DNA from: Candidatus Iainarchaeum sp.
GTDB taxonomy: Archaea > B1Sed10-29 > WALL01
Reading direction: 5' to 3'
NCBI GenBank assembly: GCA_016939415.1
Contig: JAFGGZ010000035.1
Span: 1 to 33,239 of the forward strand
Length of the DNA: 33,239 bases
The notes beneath the pieces are model-generated. The model was given only the letters and a program-made list of their open reading frames with translations, made no database searches and was not told the origin of the DNA. A program made the position numbers and the translations under genes. Below, piece after piece: positions 11,620 through 20,374 of the stretch. Each line of letters starts with the position of its first letter. Position 1 is the stretch's first letter.

Positions 11620-11704
11620 GCTGCGGTGGCGGAGTCCGGTTAACGCGCTGGCCTTGAGAGCCAGTGGGCGCAAGCCCGTGCAGGTTCAAATCCTGCCCGC
11701 AGCG
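11620..11704 (+). tRNA. tRNA-Ser (anticodon UGA)
   Basis: Acceptor GCTGCGG/CCGCAGC, anticodon arm CTGGC-CTTGAGA-GCCAG (TGA), long variable arm (TGGGCGCAAGCCCGT), T-arm GCAGG-TTCAAAT-CCTGC; CCA not encoded. Confidence 0.95.
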
Positions 11705-11717
11705 CCTTTCCAAGGAA

Positions 11718-13598: not shown

Positions 13599-13650
13599 GC
13601 GGGGCTAAGTCAGGGTGCGGCCCCTGAACTTAAGGCATGCTAACGAAGGG

Positions 13651-14073
13651 ATGAGTATGGGCTACAAGTACGTTGATGAAATCACGTCAGACGTCATGTT
13701 CGAAGTCAAGGCAAAGACCTTCGAAGAAGTGCTTTCAGACGCGGCGAAAGCAATGCTCAACATCATGTACGACATCAGCAAGGTCAACCCGCAAAAGGAA
13801 GTCATCATACGGACAGAAGGCGATGACGAGAAAGAAGCCCTGCACAACTGGCTGTCGGAAGTGCTTGCCCAGTGGGAGATAGCGGGCCTCATGCTCTCGG
13901 AATTCGACGTGAAAGTTACCAGGAAAAACGGCGTGGGAATAGAAGCAGTGGCGAGAGGCGAGCCCACCAAAAACGACATGATCCAAACACTGGTGAAAGG
14001 CGTGACATACTACAAGTACGACCTCAAGAAGGCGAAAGACGGGTACACAGCAACAGTGGTAGTGGACATATGA
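13651..14073 (+). CDS. Archease (RtcB cofactor family)
   Basis: MSMGYKYVDEITSDVMFEVKAKTFEEVLSDAAKAMLNIMYD...LHNWLSEVL resembles the archease family; located next to rtcB. Confidence 0.85.
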   Translation: MSMGYKYVDEITSDVMFEVKAKTFEEVLSDAAKAMLNIMYDISKVNPQKEVIIRTEGDDEKEALHNWLSEVLAQWEIAGLMLSEFDVKVTRKNGVGIEAVARGEPTKNDMIQTLVKGVTYYKYDLKKAKDGYTATVVVDI

Positions 14074-14615
14074 TGCAGGGCTCGAGCTACAGGGAAAGAG
14101 AACTAGAACTCATAAGACTAAAACTGGTAATGAGGCTGAGGATCAAGAAAGGAGACGAAGTCTTGGAGATAGGTTCTGGGAAAGGAGGGACATCCCTGCT
14201 GATAGCCGCAGCCACCCACGCCAAAGTCACGGGAGTAGAACCAGACAAGGAGTTCCTTCGCATTTCCAGGAAGTGGGCGAAAGACCTCGGTATAAACGCG
14301 GCTTTCAAGCCCATGCCATTCGATGGAACAATCTCCCTCAAAGACAAGTACGACTTCGTGATCCTATCAGCGGTACTGCACCACACAGAAGAAAGAACAG
14401 GATTGAGGATAGTATCAGAAGCAGTCCGACTCACCAAGAAAGGAGGATGCATCGGCATCCTGGAGCATAGGAAAGTAAGCAAGAGCCGCGTGCACAAAAG
14501 CCAGTGGAGCGTTGCGAAACTAAGGAAATCCCTCGGAAAGAGCAGCGCCAAAGTCATCAGCACGGAAAGCGCCGGAAAGAACAGCTTCATAATCGTGGCG
14601 AAGGTGATGGAATGA
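14070..14615 (+). CDS. Class I SAM-dependent methyltransferase
   Basis: Motif I VLEIGSGKGGTSLLIA and downstream GVEPDKEF, DFVILSAVLHHTE; ATG at 14070/14073 overlaps the archease stop. Confidence 0.85.
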   Translation: MMQGSSYRERELELIRLKLVMRLRIKKGDEVLEIGSGKGGTSLLIAAATHAKVTGVEPDKEFLRISRKWAKDLGINAAFKPMPFDGTISLKDKYDFVILSAVLHHTEERTGLRIVSEAVRLTKKGGCIGILEHRKVSKSRVHKSQWSVAKLRKSLGKSSAKVISTESAGKNSFIIVAKVME

Positions 14616-17521
14616 AGGAAAAACTCGAGAAAGTGTCGGACTGCAAGTGGAGAATCCCGAAGACCGCGCGAGACAGGATGCGCGTGGACGCAGTCGTGTA
14701 CGGCTCGCAAAAGATCATTGACCAAGCAGAAGACGCTGCAATAGAGCAACTCACCAACGTAGCCTGCCTCCCAGGCATCATGGAGCCAGTCGCAGGCATG
14801 CCGGACATTCACTGGGGCTACGGCCTCCCCATGGGCGCGGTAGGCGCGTTCGACGCGGAAGAAGGCGTTATCAGCGCGGGCTGCACGGGCTTCGACATAA
14901 ACTGCCTTCCTGCTGGGACAAAGGTTCTGCATGAATTCGGTTACAGAAAGAACATAGAATCATTCGAAGAGACATTTACAAAGGACAGGATTAAGTGTTT
15001 GAACCCCACGTCAAAACTAAAGAACACGGAGATTGCACTGTTTCTTAAGAAGAAGCAAAAAACTGTCATCGAGCTCGTGACAAAGGCAGGGCATAAGATC
15101 CAGGCAACGAAAGACCACCCATTCTTTACAAGAATGGGCATGAGAGAACTCAGGTATATTGCAGAAGGAGAAAGCGTTTCCGTCTTCCCGTTCCAAGGAG
15201 TCGAATACGAAAAGCCAGCAAGCGGCATAATCATTGAACACGAGCAGGTTGGCGCGAGTGTTCGCAAAGAACTGGAACAGAAGCACTTGCTCCCTCTGAC
15301 GCATGACAACGAAAAACTTCCTTATCTTCTCAAGTTGATGGGGTTCATAACCGGAGACGGCTGTGTGTACTGCAGCAAGGGACATTTCTTTGTATGCTTT
15401 TATGGAGAAAAAGAAGATCTTGAAGTAATAAGAGAGGATGTCAAGCGATTGGGATTCAAACCCGGGGTGATAAGCTCGAGAAATAGGAAACACAACATAA
15501 AAACATCATACGGCAACGTGGTCTTTGAACATCTAGAGAACACGTTCCGAGTATCCTCGAAAGCCCTATACGTCCTGCTTGAAACCCTTGGATTGACAAC
15601 AGGCAACAAAGTCAGAAAGGAAATGCTCGTCCCCGCGTGGGTGCTCAAGTGTCCTAAGTGGCAAAAAAGGCTTTACTTGGCAACGTTGTTCGGAGCTGAA
15701 CTTACCACTCCTTCCACCGTGACAAAACACGGTTATAACTTTTACGGACAAGTGCTTTCAATGAACAAAGAGAAAGGCCTGCTAGCAAATGGAAAGCGAT
15801 TCATGAAGCAGGTACAGGATCTCCTGAAAGAATTCGGTATTAAGAGTACGCTGCTAAAGGAGCGGAAAGAGTATGTTAACAAGGAAGGGATCGAATCGTA
15901 TAGGTTAAGGCTGCAGATCTCTGCCACGTCAGATAATTTGCTAAGACTATGGAGCACCATCGGGTTTGAATACAACAAAGAAAAGATGTTCAAAGCAAAT
16001 GCTGCGCTACAATACCTAAAGCTTAAACAGATAATAATATCCGAAAGGGAAAGAGCCCAAGATCAAATAAGGAAAATGAAAAAGCAGCACAAGCCATTCA
16101 AAGAAACTCTCTCCCTCAAAAGCGAGTACGTGAACCAAAGATTCCTCCAACGCTCATACTACGAAAAAAGTGGGATGCCAAGAGTGACCCATAAGTTTGA
16201 AACATTCGAAGAGTTTCTGAAGAACAGCACCGAAGGATTAGGAAAAACAGGGCAAGTATGGGACGCCATCGTAAAAATGCGGGAAATACCACACAATGGC
16301 CTTGTTTATGACTTCACAGTCGCTGATGAGAACCACAACTTCATCGCAAACAATTTCATGGTCTCTAACTGCGGCATCCACATGATACGAACAGACCTCA
16401 CAGCAAAAGAAGTGACCCCCAAACTCGATGAACTCGTGGAAACACTGTTCACCAAAGTCCCGTGCGGCGTCGGGTCGGAAAGCAAGCTACGCATCACAGG
16501 AGACGAATTCGACGAAGTCCTCACCACCGGCGCGGTCTGGGCGAAGGAAAACGGCTTCGCGACAGAAGACGACATCAAGCACATGGAAGAAGAAGGCAGG
16601 ATGGACGGCGCGGACCCATCAAAAATCAGCGACACAGCGAGAAAGCGCGGGCGCTCGCAGATGGGCACGCTCGGAGCGGGGAACCACTTCCTCGAAGTAC
16701 AGAAAGTGGACGACATCTATGACAAGAAAGCGGCAAAAGCCTTCGGAGTGGAGAGCAAGGACCAGGCAATCATCATGCTTCACTGCGGCTCTCGCGGATT
16801 CGGCCACCAAGTCGCCACAGACTACCTGAAAATCCACGAGAAAGCAGCCAAGAAATACGACATCTGGCTGCCGGACCCGCAGCTCGTGTGCGCGCCGACC
16901 ACGAGCCCGGAAGGACAAGCATACTTCAAGGCAATGAAGTGCGCAGTCAACTACGCCTTCTGCAACCGCACAGTCATGACGCACTGGGTGAGGGAAAGCT
17001 TTGCCCAAGTCTTCAAGCAGGACTGGGAATCGCTGGGAATGAAAACCATTTACGACGTCGCGCACAACATATGCAAGCTCGAGAAGCACAAGATCGGCGG
17101 CGAGACAAGGGAACTGTACGTGCACAGGAAAGGCGCGACCAGGTCACTGCCAGCAGGCCACGAACTGGTGCCGGACACGTACCGGCAGGTCGGCCAGCCA
17201 GTGCTCATCGCAGGATCCATGGGCACTGCATCGCACATACTAGTAGGCGCGGAAAAAGCAGCAGAGTCGTTCTACTCATCGTGCCACGGCGCGGGAAGAA
17301 CCATGTCCCGCCACGCAGCCATACGAGAGTTCTGGGGGGAGGACGTCAGGAAAAAACTCGCTGAAAAAGGCATAAAAGCCAAGTCCACCCACCCGAAAGT
17401 GCTATCAGAAGAAGCGCCGGAAGCGTACAAGGACGTTGATGAAGTCATAGAATCAGTGCACTGCGCAGGCCTATCCTCAAAAGTCGTGCGCGTAACACCC
17501 ATGGGCGTTGTCAAGGGCTAA
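14612..17521 (+). CDS. rtcB: RNA-splicing ligase RtcB, intein-containing precursor
   Basis: N-extein ...PDIHWGYGLPMGAVGAFDAEEGVISAGCTGFDIN joined to C-extein CGIHMIRTDL; later HCGSRGFGHQVATDYL, GAGRTMSRHAA; ATGA overlap with the methyltransferase stop; 969-aa precursor, 480 aa without intein. Confidence 0.96.
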   Translation: MKEKLEKVSDCKWRIPKTARDRMRVDAVVYGSQKIIDQAEDAAIEQLTNVACLPGIMEPVAGMPDIHWGYGLPMGAVGAFDAEEGVISAGCTGFDINCLPAGTKVLHEFGYRKNIESFEETFTKDRIKCLNPTSKLKNTEIALFLKKKQKTVIELVTKAGHKIQATKDHPFFTRMGMRELRYIAEGESVSVFPFQGVEYEKPASGIIIEHEQVGASVRKELEQKHLLPLTHDNEKLPYLLKLMGFITGDGCVYCSKGHFFVCFYGEKEDLEVIREDVKRLGFKPGVISSRNRKHNIKTSYGNVVFEHLENTFRVSSKALYVLLETLGLTTGNKVRKEMLVPAWVLKCPKWQKRLYLATLFGAELTTPSTVTKHGYNFYGQVLSMNKEKGLLANGKRFMKQVQDLLKEFGIKSTLLKERKEYVNKEGIESYRLRLQISATSDNLLRLWSTIGFEYNKEKMFKANAALQYLKLKQIIISERERAQDQIRKMKKQHKPFKETLSLKSEYVNQRFLQRSYYEKSGMPRVTHKFETFEEFLKNSTEGLGKTGQVWDAIVKMREIPHNGLVYDFTVADENHNFIANNFMVSNCGIHMIRTDLTAKEVTPKLDELVETLFTKVPCGVGSESKLRITGDEFDEVLTTGAVWAKENGFATEDDIKHMEEEGRMDGADPSKISDTARKRGRSQMGTLGAGNHFLEVQKVDDIYDKKAAKAFGVESKDQAIIMLHCGSRGFGHQVATDYLKIHEKAAKKYDIWLPDPQLVCAPTTSPEGQAYFKAMKCAVNYAFCNRTVMTHWVRESFAQVFKQDWESLGMKTIYDVAHNICKLEKHKIGGETRELYVHRKGATRSLPAGHELVPDTYRQVGQPVLIAGSMGTASHILVGAEKAAESFYSSCHGAGRTMSRHAAIREFWGEDVRKKLAEKGIKAKSTHPKVLSEEAPEAYKDVDEVIESVHCAGLSSKVVRVTPMGVVKG
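14903..16369 (+). mobile_element. Intein with LAGLIDADG homing endonuclease domain, inserted at RtcB Cys98
   Basis: 489 aa; block A CLPAGTKVLHE, block B GHKIQATKDHPFFT, HEN motifs LLKLMGFITGDG and LYLATLFGAELTT, block F VYDFTVADENHNFIANNFMVSN followed by Cys+1; host RtcB motif GFDIN/CGIH is restored by excision. Confidence 0.95.
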
Positions 17522-18100: not shown

Positions 18101-18142
18101 AAACCCCATTCTTTTTTTAACAGCATGCACAATACCCTACGC

Positions 18143-18466
18143 ATGCCAAAACATGAAACCATTTTCAGGATGCGCGTGGGCGTGCCGCACACGCACCCGC
18201 AAGCCAAAGAACGAGCCGTCGCAAGACTGAACACGCTCCTCAACCAGGCGAAGAACAGCAAAGGCAACCTGCTCGCGCTGGAATCAGCAGAAACCGAAGC
18301 AGGCAGGAAGCTTGCCAGGCTCCACGAAGCAGAATACGTCGACTCAACGAATGAGATGCGCGAACTCGTGAGCGCGGTCGACGCGCTGCTCAGAGGCGTG
18401 AACACCAACGCGTACAAGGCCATGCTGGAAACCCCGCAGACCCAAGGCAAAGCAAAACCTTTATAA
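18143..18466 (+). CDS. Hypothetical protein
   Basis: MPKHETIFRMRVGVPHTHPQAKERAVARLNTLLNQAKNS...; T/A-rich promoter-like tract at 18112-18120; alternative start ATG 18125. Confidence 0.55.
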   Translation: MPKHETIFRMRVGVPHTHPQAKERAVARLNTLLNQAKNSKGNLLALESAETEAGRKLARLHEAEYVDSTNEMRELVSAVDALLRGVNTNAYKAMLETPQTQGKAKPL

Positions 18467-18467
18467 A
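18460..18467 (+). promoter_or_regulatory. TATA box for the rpl3 operon
   Basis: tttataaa, with predicted transcription start about 25 nt downstream near 18485-18490. Confidence 0.55.
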
Positions 18468-18489
18468 CAGAGTCCCGCAGAACAATGGC

Positions 18490-18570
18490 ATACTGTACGG
18501 AACCCGTATGGTGTCACAACTTCTGTTGTTGTTTGGAATGGAACGCTTACGACCTAGAGTCCGCGTTCTG
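18490..18570 (+). promoter_or_regulatory. Putative structured 5' leader of rpl3 (three consecutive hairpins)
   Basis: P1 18490-18500/18504-18514 (11 bp incl. 3 G.U, loop AAC); P2 18516-18520/18525-18529 (ACAAC-ttct-GTTGT); P3 18541-18546/18563-18568 (GAACGC/GCGTTC) with inner GAC/GTC. Confidence 0.45.
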
Positions 18571-18584
18571 CACGGGTGATCAGA

Positions 18585-19583
18585 GTGACAAAACTATCAC
18601 GTCCCCGGAGAGGTTCTCTTGGGTTCTCACCGAGAAAGCGCGCGAAGCGCCCCTACGCCAGCCCCCGCTCTTACACAAAGAGCGAAGCGGCCAAGGCACT
18701 GGCATTCCCGGGATACAAAGCAGGCATGACGCACGTCATGGCAGTCGACAAATACCCCACCTCGCCATCCTTCGACCAGACCGTGTTCATCCCCGCAACC
18801 ATCATCGAGTGCCCGCCCATGACTGTGTTCGGCATCAGGGCGTACGAAATGACGGTTAACGGCCTAAATGCAGTCACAGAAGTTTGGGCCGAAAAACTCG
18901 ACAAGAACCTCAAACGCAAAACATCCACGCCCAAAGAACACAACCACGACACCAAAAAGATCGAGGAAAAACTCGGAACTCTTTCTGAAATCAGACTCCT
19001 CGTGCACACGAACCCCACATTCAAGAAAAAGCCAGAGGCATTCGAAGTCCTCGTCGGAGGGGACGTGAAAGCCGCATGGGAGTACGCCAAAAGCGTGCTC
19101 GGAAAACAAGTCAAGGCCAGCGACGTGCTCAAGGCAGGAGACTGCGTCGACGCAATCGCGATCACCAAAGGCAAAGGCATTCAAGGCCCTGTAAAGCGCT
19201 GGGGCACAAAAATACAGTACAGGAAAGCCCACGGCAAGCGCAGGCACGTCGGCGTCGTGAACCCATGGACGCCGAACCGGACCATGTGGACCGCGCTGGA
19301 AGCCGGCCAGATGGGATACCACCGCAGAACCGAATTCAACAAGCGCATACTTGCCATAGGCGAAGACGGCAAGGCCATCACCCCGAAAGGCGGCATACCC
19401 AACTACGGCGTGGTCAAGAGCGAGTACGTACTCGTGAAAGGAAGCCTTCCAGGCACGAAGAAAAGACTGGTTGTCATGAGGCCGCCCGCAAGACCGACAG
19501 CAGAGAAGCCAGCCTATGAAGTGAAGAGCATTTCAACAGACTCTCAGCAAGGCAAGCGCTCTTGGAAGGGGGTTGAAGCATGA
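18585..19583 (+). CDS. rpl3: 50S ribosomal protein L3
   Basis: VTKLSRPRRGSLGFSPRKRAKRPYAS...; GTG 18585 gives the usual N-terminal spacing to RPRRGS and has gggtgat upstream; GTG 18576 is an alternative. Confidence 0.95.
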   Translation: MTKLSRPRRGSLGFSPRKRAKRPYASPRSYTKSEAAKALAFPGYKAGMTHVMAVDKYPTSPSFDQTVFIPATIIECPPMTVFGIRAYEMTVNGLNAVTEVWAEKLDKNLKRKTSTPKEHNHDTKKIEEKLGTLSEIRLLVHTNPTFKKKPEAFEVLVGGDVKAAWEYAKSVLGKQVKASDVLKAGDCVDAIAITKGKGIQGPVKRWGTKIQYRKAHGKRRHVGVVNPWTPNRTMWTALEAGQMGYHRRTEFNKRILAIGEDGKAITPKGGIPNYGVVKSEYVLVKGSLPGTKKRLVVMRPPARPTAEKPAYEVKSISTDSQQGKRSWKGVEA

Positions 19584-20374
19584 AAACCCAGATCTACTCA
19601 ATCAAAGGGGAACAAGTCAAGAGCATGGACCTACCCAAAGTGTTCAAGACAGGCTATAACCCGGCACTCATCAGGAGAGCAGTCGTGACAGAGCAGAGCA
19701 CGAGGCTGCAGCCGAAAGGCAATGACATAACCGCAGGACTCAAGACGAGTGCTGAGTACATAGGCCGCAGACAGGCATTCAGGAGCGGCATAAACAAAGG
19801 CATCTCCAGACTGCCACGCGTCAAGCTCGGCGGCGGAGGCCTCGGGGAAGTGCGCATAGTCCCGCACGCCAAAGGCGGAAGGAGAGCGCACCCTCCGAAG
19901 GTCGAAAAAGTGCTTGAGAAGCACATGAACAAGAAAGAAAAGAAACTCGCACTCATGTCGGCCATAGCCGCAACAACCCAAAAAGAACTCGTGAAGGAGC
20001 GCGGCCACGAACTCAACGGAATCAAGGACGTGCCGATCATAGTCGAAGACAAGTTCCAATCACTGAAGAAGACCAAGGAAGCAGTGGAAACACTCACGAA
20101 ACTAGGTCTCGGAAAAGACCTGAACCGCGCGAGCAAGAAGAAGGTGCGGGCAGGAAAGAAGCGCGTCGCAAAACATGAGAAGAAGAAGAGCGTTCTCATC
20201 ATCGTCGGCAAGGACGACGGCGCGATAAAGGCGTGCAGGAACATACAGGGCGTGGACATCGCCACAGTCGAGCGACTGAACGTGGGATTGCTCGCTCCCG
20301 GAGCGCACGCAGGAAGACTCACTGTCTGGACAGAGTCCGCAGTGAAGCAGGTCGGTGAGAAATATGGCGCTTAA
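19580..20374 (+). CDS. rpl4: 50S ribosomal protein L4
   Basis: RRAVVTEQSTRLQPKGNDITAGLKTSAEYIGRRQAFRSGINKGISRLPRVK...GGRRAHPPKVEK. Confidence 0.96.
   Translation: MKTQIYSIKGEQVKSMDLPKVFKTGYNPALIRRAVVTEQSTRLQPKGNDITAGLKTSAEYIGRRQAFRSGINKGISRLPRVKLGGGGLGEVRIVPHAKGGRRAHPPKVEKVLEKHMNKKEKKLALMSAIAATTQKELVKERGHELNGIKDVPIIVEDKFQSLKKTKEAVETLTKLGLGKDLNRASKKKVRAGKKRVAKHEKKKSVLIIVGKDDGAIKACRNIQGVDIATVERLNVGLLAPGAHAGRLTVWTESAVKQVGEKYGA

Follow-up and report, generated by a model that had tools for sequence, protein, structure and literature searches.

The window, meaning the whole 33,239-nucleotide stretch of DNA analysed here, is contig C48 of an archaeal genome (0.84 Mb, 85% complete) that was the sole member of its genus among the genomes compared. 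Its named relatives comprise Candidatus Diapherotrites AUK171 together with bins that bear the label Micrarchaeota or DPANN. The window carries an operon of ribosomal protein (r-protein) genes in the order L3, L4, L23, L2, S19, L22 and S3, followed by the genes for the RNase P p29 subunit, S17, L14, L24 and S4e, with SecY further downstream. The first gene, rpl3 (uL3), is preceded by a leader of approximately 95 nt, which lies between the TATA box (18461–18467) and the GTG start codon at 18585. The features of this region are as follows.

18461–18467, + strand: TATA box (TTTATAA) in the promoter of the uL3 operon, with a BRE-like AAACC just before it (sequence; counterpart upstream of the hairpin 1 core in 10/10 genomes)
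18490–18514, + strand: hairpin 1, ATACTGTACGG-AAC-CCGTATGGTGT, at the predicted mRNA 5' end (sequence, fold, compensatory changes, and one covariance model match per genome upstream of uL3)
18516–18529, + strand: hairpin 2, ACAAC-TTCT-GTTGT, with a pyrimidine loop (fold; recurs right after hairpin 1 in relatives)
18541–18568, + strand: hairpin 3, GAACGC...GCGTTC with inner GAC/GTC, lineage-variable and not conserved (sequence; comparison with relatives)
18575–18580, + strand: Shine-Dalgarno sequence GGTGAT, the complement of AUCACC at the 16S 3' end (sequence; 16S 3' ends of relatives)
18585–19583, + strand: rpl3 (uL3), operon gene 1, GTG start at 18585 (Pfam Ribosomal_L3, E 2.3e-79; start aligned with relatives)
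19580–20374, + strand: rpl4 (uL4), operon gene 2, candidate leader ligand (Pfam Ribosomal_L4)

Upstream of this region, a 113-aa ORF without a Pfam match (18125–18466) extends at its end into the uL3 promoter's TATA box. An RtcB RNA ligase gene (14504–17521) contains an intein with a LAGLIDADG domain and has an archease gene nearby (13615–14073), and the only tRNA gene within the window is that for tRNA-Ser (TGA, 11620–11706).

The GTG at 18585 is a better candidate for the uL3 start codon than the in-frame GTG at 18576, because relatives have their ATG at this alignment position (M-T-K-L-T in G002) and the alternative lies within the Shine-Dalgarno sequence. Each of the ten genomes that carry the element described below has a TATA-like box, which begins 32–35 nt 5' of the hairpin 1 core and in several of them reads AAACCTTTWTAWA; the core lies 74–92 nt before the start codon. 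Archaeal promoters have a usual spacing between TATA box and transcription start, and the constant distance therefore places the start at most a few bases from hairpin 1, which is predicted to form the 5' end of the mRNA. A preliminary description of this DNA had proposed a TATA box, transcription from near 18485–18490, a leader of about 90–100 nt before GTG 18585 and a likely ribosome-binding site, gggtgat. The TATA box was found at 18461–18467, the predicted start fits the spacing seen in the ten genomes, alignment with relatives supports the GTG, and GGTGAT is complementary to the 16S 3' end.

The three end-to-end hairpins that the preliminary description had placed in the leader are present (18490–18568). 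Hairpin 1 pairs ATACTGTACGG (18490–18500) with CCGTATGGTGT (18504–18514) across an AAC loop, giving 11 bp of which several are G-U. Hairpin 2 pairs ACAAC (18516–18520) with GTTGT (18525–18529) across TTCT, and hairpin 3 pairs GAACGC (18541–18546) with GCGTTC (18563–18568), enclosing GAC (18551–18553) and GTC (18559–18561). Folding of the whole leader was no better than that of dinucleotide shuffles (z −0.54 and −0.82). The core consisting of hairpins 1 and 2 folded at −15.9 kcal/mol (z −2.80), a value matched by 3 of 200 shuffles. Folding energy by itself is insufficient to decide the matter, and comparison with relatives is the decisive evidence.

We compared uL3 loci from the family and the order to which the window genome belongs. 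The leader is shared by three families: f1 (the window genome, G001, G002, G003 and G004), f2 (G005 and G006) and f4 (G008, G009 and G010). The hairpin 1 core reads CUGUACGG-AAC-CCGUAUGG in the window and CUGCAUGG-AAC-CCAUGUGG in G001, and it is CUCCGCU-GGACC-AGCGGGG in G003, CCGUGUG-AAAUCC-CACACGG in G008 and CCGCGUG-AAAUCC-CACGUGG in G009. Covariation was scored on a MAFFT alignment (A3) that was built without use of structure. Pairing was kept in 79 of the 80 cells of this alignment (98.8%), and six of the eight pairs had changed on both sides. The covariation score was 0.797, against 0.369 ± 0.058 for shuffles (0/500 reached the observed value) and a maximum of 0.339 for slid partners. RNAalifold returned the same eight pairs from a further alignment, A4, which had been fitted to the model. 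When sites were simulated independently on an assumed tree with hand-set topology and branch lengths, no more than 1 of 20,000 runs reached the observed pairing, and none the observed covariation. The loop letters of hairpin 1 were kept in kind (GAACC, GGACC, AGGUCC and AAAUCC), which is what a binding site would be expected to show. Compensatory changes in relatives had been set beforehand as the test that could refute the proposal of a structured leader; they were found, and they are strong in hairpin 1. These results indicate that the shape of the hairpin, and not its letters, is conserved across ten related genomes, and that the element is a conserved RNA structure. G-U pairs are common in hairpin 1, which argues for a constraint on RNA rather than on a DNA palindrome.

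Hairpin 2 kept its position directly 3' of hairpin 1 in most relatives, with a combined p of 4e-5 against shuffles; the ten leaders behind this value are not fully independent (G003 and G004 are non-independent, and the stems of G008 and G010 are weak). Its loop is pyrimidine-rich; it reads CCCCUUCU in f4, and UUCU or a similar sequence in the other two families. A clear counterpart of hairpin 3 was confined to G002, G005, G008, G009 and G010 (combined p 0.027); among the ten leaders it was otherwise absent or poor in several, and its sequence was not kept. Hairpin 3 is therefore a lineage-variable feature, since its counterparts are limited to five genomes and have unrelated sequences. Thus the structured element proposed at the outset held for hairpin 1, which covaries, and for hairpin 2, which recurs, but not for hairpin 3.

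Of the 11 genomes in the order, ten had a single match to a covariance model of hairpin 1 and the hairpin 2 region (R1), in each case immediately before uL3. The eleventh, G007 of family f3, has a leader with a different, single hairpin. R1 had no match in the eight genomes sampled from other orders of the phylum (19 genomes in the phylum sample). Across 297 archaeal genomes the ten members scored 35.8–53.8 bits and everything else at most 22.9 bits, with no convincing match outside the order. A scan of 80 uL3 loci from other archaea gave strong matches only in relatives already counted. The element is therefore consistently upstream of the r-protein gene uL3 and not elsewhere, and its secondary structure, supported by compensatory changes, lies in the 5' UTR of that gene; both properties characterise r-protein leaders. 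On present data this is a candidate r-protein leader family confined to one order of Diapherotrites-type DPANN archaea.

Because this conserved RNA structure occurred nowhere but ahead of the uL3 operon, a regulatory leader of that r-protein operon is the best explanation of the element. We consider it probable, though well short of certain, that this is a new r-protein leader, a cis-acting RNA at the mRNA 5' end that exerts feedback on the L3-L4-L23-L2 operon. The association with a single operon, together with the conserved loops, suggests a platform to which a protein product of the operon would bind to exert feedback, and the long r-protein operon 3' of the leader is consistent with this. 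Binding of an r-protein, the identity of that protein, and the direction and level of control are inferred. The putative ligand is most likely uL4 and next uL3; L4 is a candidate because E. coli L4 controls its own operon (PMC7186457) and because the leader that precedes this operon in Archaeoglobi has L4 as its presumed ligand (PMC7247131), and L3 because it is the product of the first gene. The proposed mechanism would begin with hairpin 1, formed from the first nucleotides of the transcript, and the adjoining hairpin 2 acting together as the platform. An operon r-protein (most likely uL4, then uL3) present in excess over rRNA would bind it, and binding would either lower the rate of translation initiation at the GGUGAU/GTG site, some 60 nt further 3', or shorten the lifetime of the mRNA. 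In consequence, r-protein synthesis would track rRNA supply, and the leader would probably be a previously undescribed switch that matches the supply of ribosomal proteins to demand.

R-protein leaders are widespread as a kind, and each is typically restricted to particular lineages. Their resemblance to the rRNA site of the ligand is common but not obligatory. Plausible rRNA mimicry was reported for only a quarter of the new r-protein leaders in PMC7247131. The candidate autoregulatory leader of the preliminary description stands as a conserved structure found only at the uL3 operon, but no rRNA mimicry that would name L3, L4 or L23 was upheld.

The nearest precedent is L4-Archaeoglobi (RF03135; Eckert and Weinberg 2020, PMC7247131), likewise a lineage-restricted archaeal leader predicted by comparison upstream of the rpl3-rpl4 operon. 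It belongs to another lineage, however, and its consensus is a closed multi-stem structure of 85 positions with an outer CUGAC/GUCAG stem, whereas the present leader consists of end-to-end hairpins. Searches with RF03135, up to E 10 for the window leader and up to E 5 for the ten leader loci, found no match. One RF03135 match, in locus L046, was just above threshold and inside an upstream coding ORF, and is probably false. The comparison with Rfam r-protein leaders that had been proposed for this leader gave nothing, as no Rfam family matched it. The E. coli S10-operon leader, bound by L4, offers a parallel to the control proposed here, in that an operon for L3, L4, L23, L2 and further proteins is controlled through its leader by its own product; that leader is bacterial and experimentally proven to act by transcription attenuation and translation (PMC7186457). 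The eL15-Euryarchaeota, S15-Halobacteria and S15-Methanomicrobia leaders (PMC7247131) are also predicted, lineage-restricted archaeal r-protein leaders, but they precede other genes and have other structures, and several resemble an rRNA site, which the present leader does not clearly do. L7Ae leaders (PMC5539422) are archaeal mRNA leader RNAs recognised by a ribosomal protein, as is proposed here. L7Ae, however, recognises kink-turns (a 3-nt bulge, then tandem G-A pairs), and no kink-turn-type internal loop was seen in hairpins 1 and 2 on inspection of the folds. The words DPANN and Diapherotrites are absent from PMC7247131. Our literature search, which mostly did not cover subscription papers, found no published description of the element, and it found no cis-regulatory RNAs from DPANN lineages.

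The position of hairpin 1 at the predicted transcript start in 10/10 genomes would also suit a 5'-terminal stabiliser, in which the hairpin caps a highly expressed mRNA for protection from 5'-3' exonucleases or for promoter escape, with no feedback by an r-protein. We regard this as unlikely. Conserved loop letters would be superfluous in a plain cap, as would a second hairpin whose pyrimidine loop is also kept, and restriction to one operon per genome would be unexpected of such a cap.

The leader might instead be a decoy of the 16S rRNA 3' end, with hairpin 1 in the role of helix 45 and the pyrimidine-rich hairpin 2 loop in that of the anti-Shine-Dalgarno tail, so that a small-subunit 3'-end factor rather than L3 or L4 would bind it. 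Such a factor would then control a large r-protein operon and couple it to small-subunit assembly. The top R1 match in rRNA operons did come from G006, at its 16S 3' end (11.8 bits, E 0.18; E 0.1 with filters off), a second match lay at the same place in G008 (8.4 bits), and family f4 has AUCCCCUUCU against AUCACCUCCU. These matches were, however, chosen post hoc and score at chance level, partly from bases past the rRNA end. In the opposite direction, a helix-45 model retrieved none of the leaders, even at E 10, sequence similarity was weak (shuffle p 0.02–0.55), other rRNA windows ranked higher, and the hairpin loop is not GGAA. We therefore consider the decoy very improbable.

There is equally little to recommend a riboswitch, or another small-molecule or RNA-based sensor, that precedes the operon by happenstance: a compact conserved leader structure would fit, but the hairpins are short, with neither a multi-stem junction nor a highly conserved core, no Rfam riboswitch matched, and the element occurs solely upstream of the r-protein operon. 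Chance hairpins, or a DNA palindrome bound by a transcription factor, are the least credible, since the arms covary with pairing kept and many G-U pairs, where a DNA site would retain its letters, even though the whole leader folds no better than shuffles and the element adjoins the promoter.

Several further structures and constraints were considered. Ungapped similarity, loop-plus-stem pattern and covariance model searches for 23S mimicry gave chance-level matches only. In the minimum-energy fold of the window leader, GUCAC pairs with GUGAC, joining the hairpin 2 region to the start codon; across relatives, sequestration of the Shine-Dalgarno sequence or start codon by this region was no better than in shuffles (combined p 0.37). 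Kissing between the purine loop of hairpin 1 and the pyrimidine loop of hairpin 2 is feasible on paper in most leaders, its covariation being inseparable from loop composition. A coding constraint (an ATG at 18485 opening an ORF to 18859) was rejected: differences in loop and leader length among relatives break any frame, and there was no Pfam match.

Few archaeal cis-regulatory RNAs are known, and four archaeal r-protein leader motifs were added in 2020 (PMC7247131). Here the biggest r-protein operon carries a conserved leader structure with good support, for which a start site is predicted and ten sequences are available for building a covariance model; feedback control of ribosome synthesis thereby becomes testable in a genome-reduced archaeon. 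The leader also adds a further case in which sister lineages appear to employ different RNAs at one operon.

Other leaders were noticed at uL3 loci. In family f5 of the same phylum (loci L019, L020 and L021 of G013, G012 and G011, respectively), a different conserved leader lies about 40–160 nt before uL3 and reads CCCAAACUACAACG...CGUUGAAAGUGGGUUU...AAACCUACUU. Its AGUGGG has two alternative pairing partners, CCCAAACU on the upstream side and CCUACUU on the downstream side; compensatory changes occur in L019, and for this reason the leader looks like a two-state switch. The leaders of loci L016 and L022 (G018 and G016, respectively) share GGUCYAG ... GCGAUGAAGAC, and GCGAUGAAGAC resembles GAUGAAGG(A/G)CG near the 23S rRNA 5' end. 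At the 23S rRNA locus of G001 (L122), the positions of the sarcin-ricin and PTC motifs are shifted about 1.1 kb in the 3' direction compared with relatives, a displacement that points to an insertion or intron in this gene.
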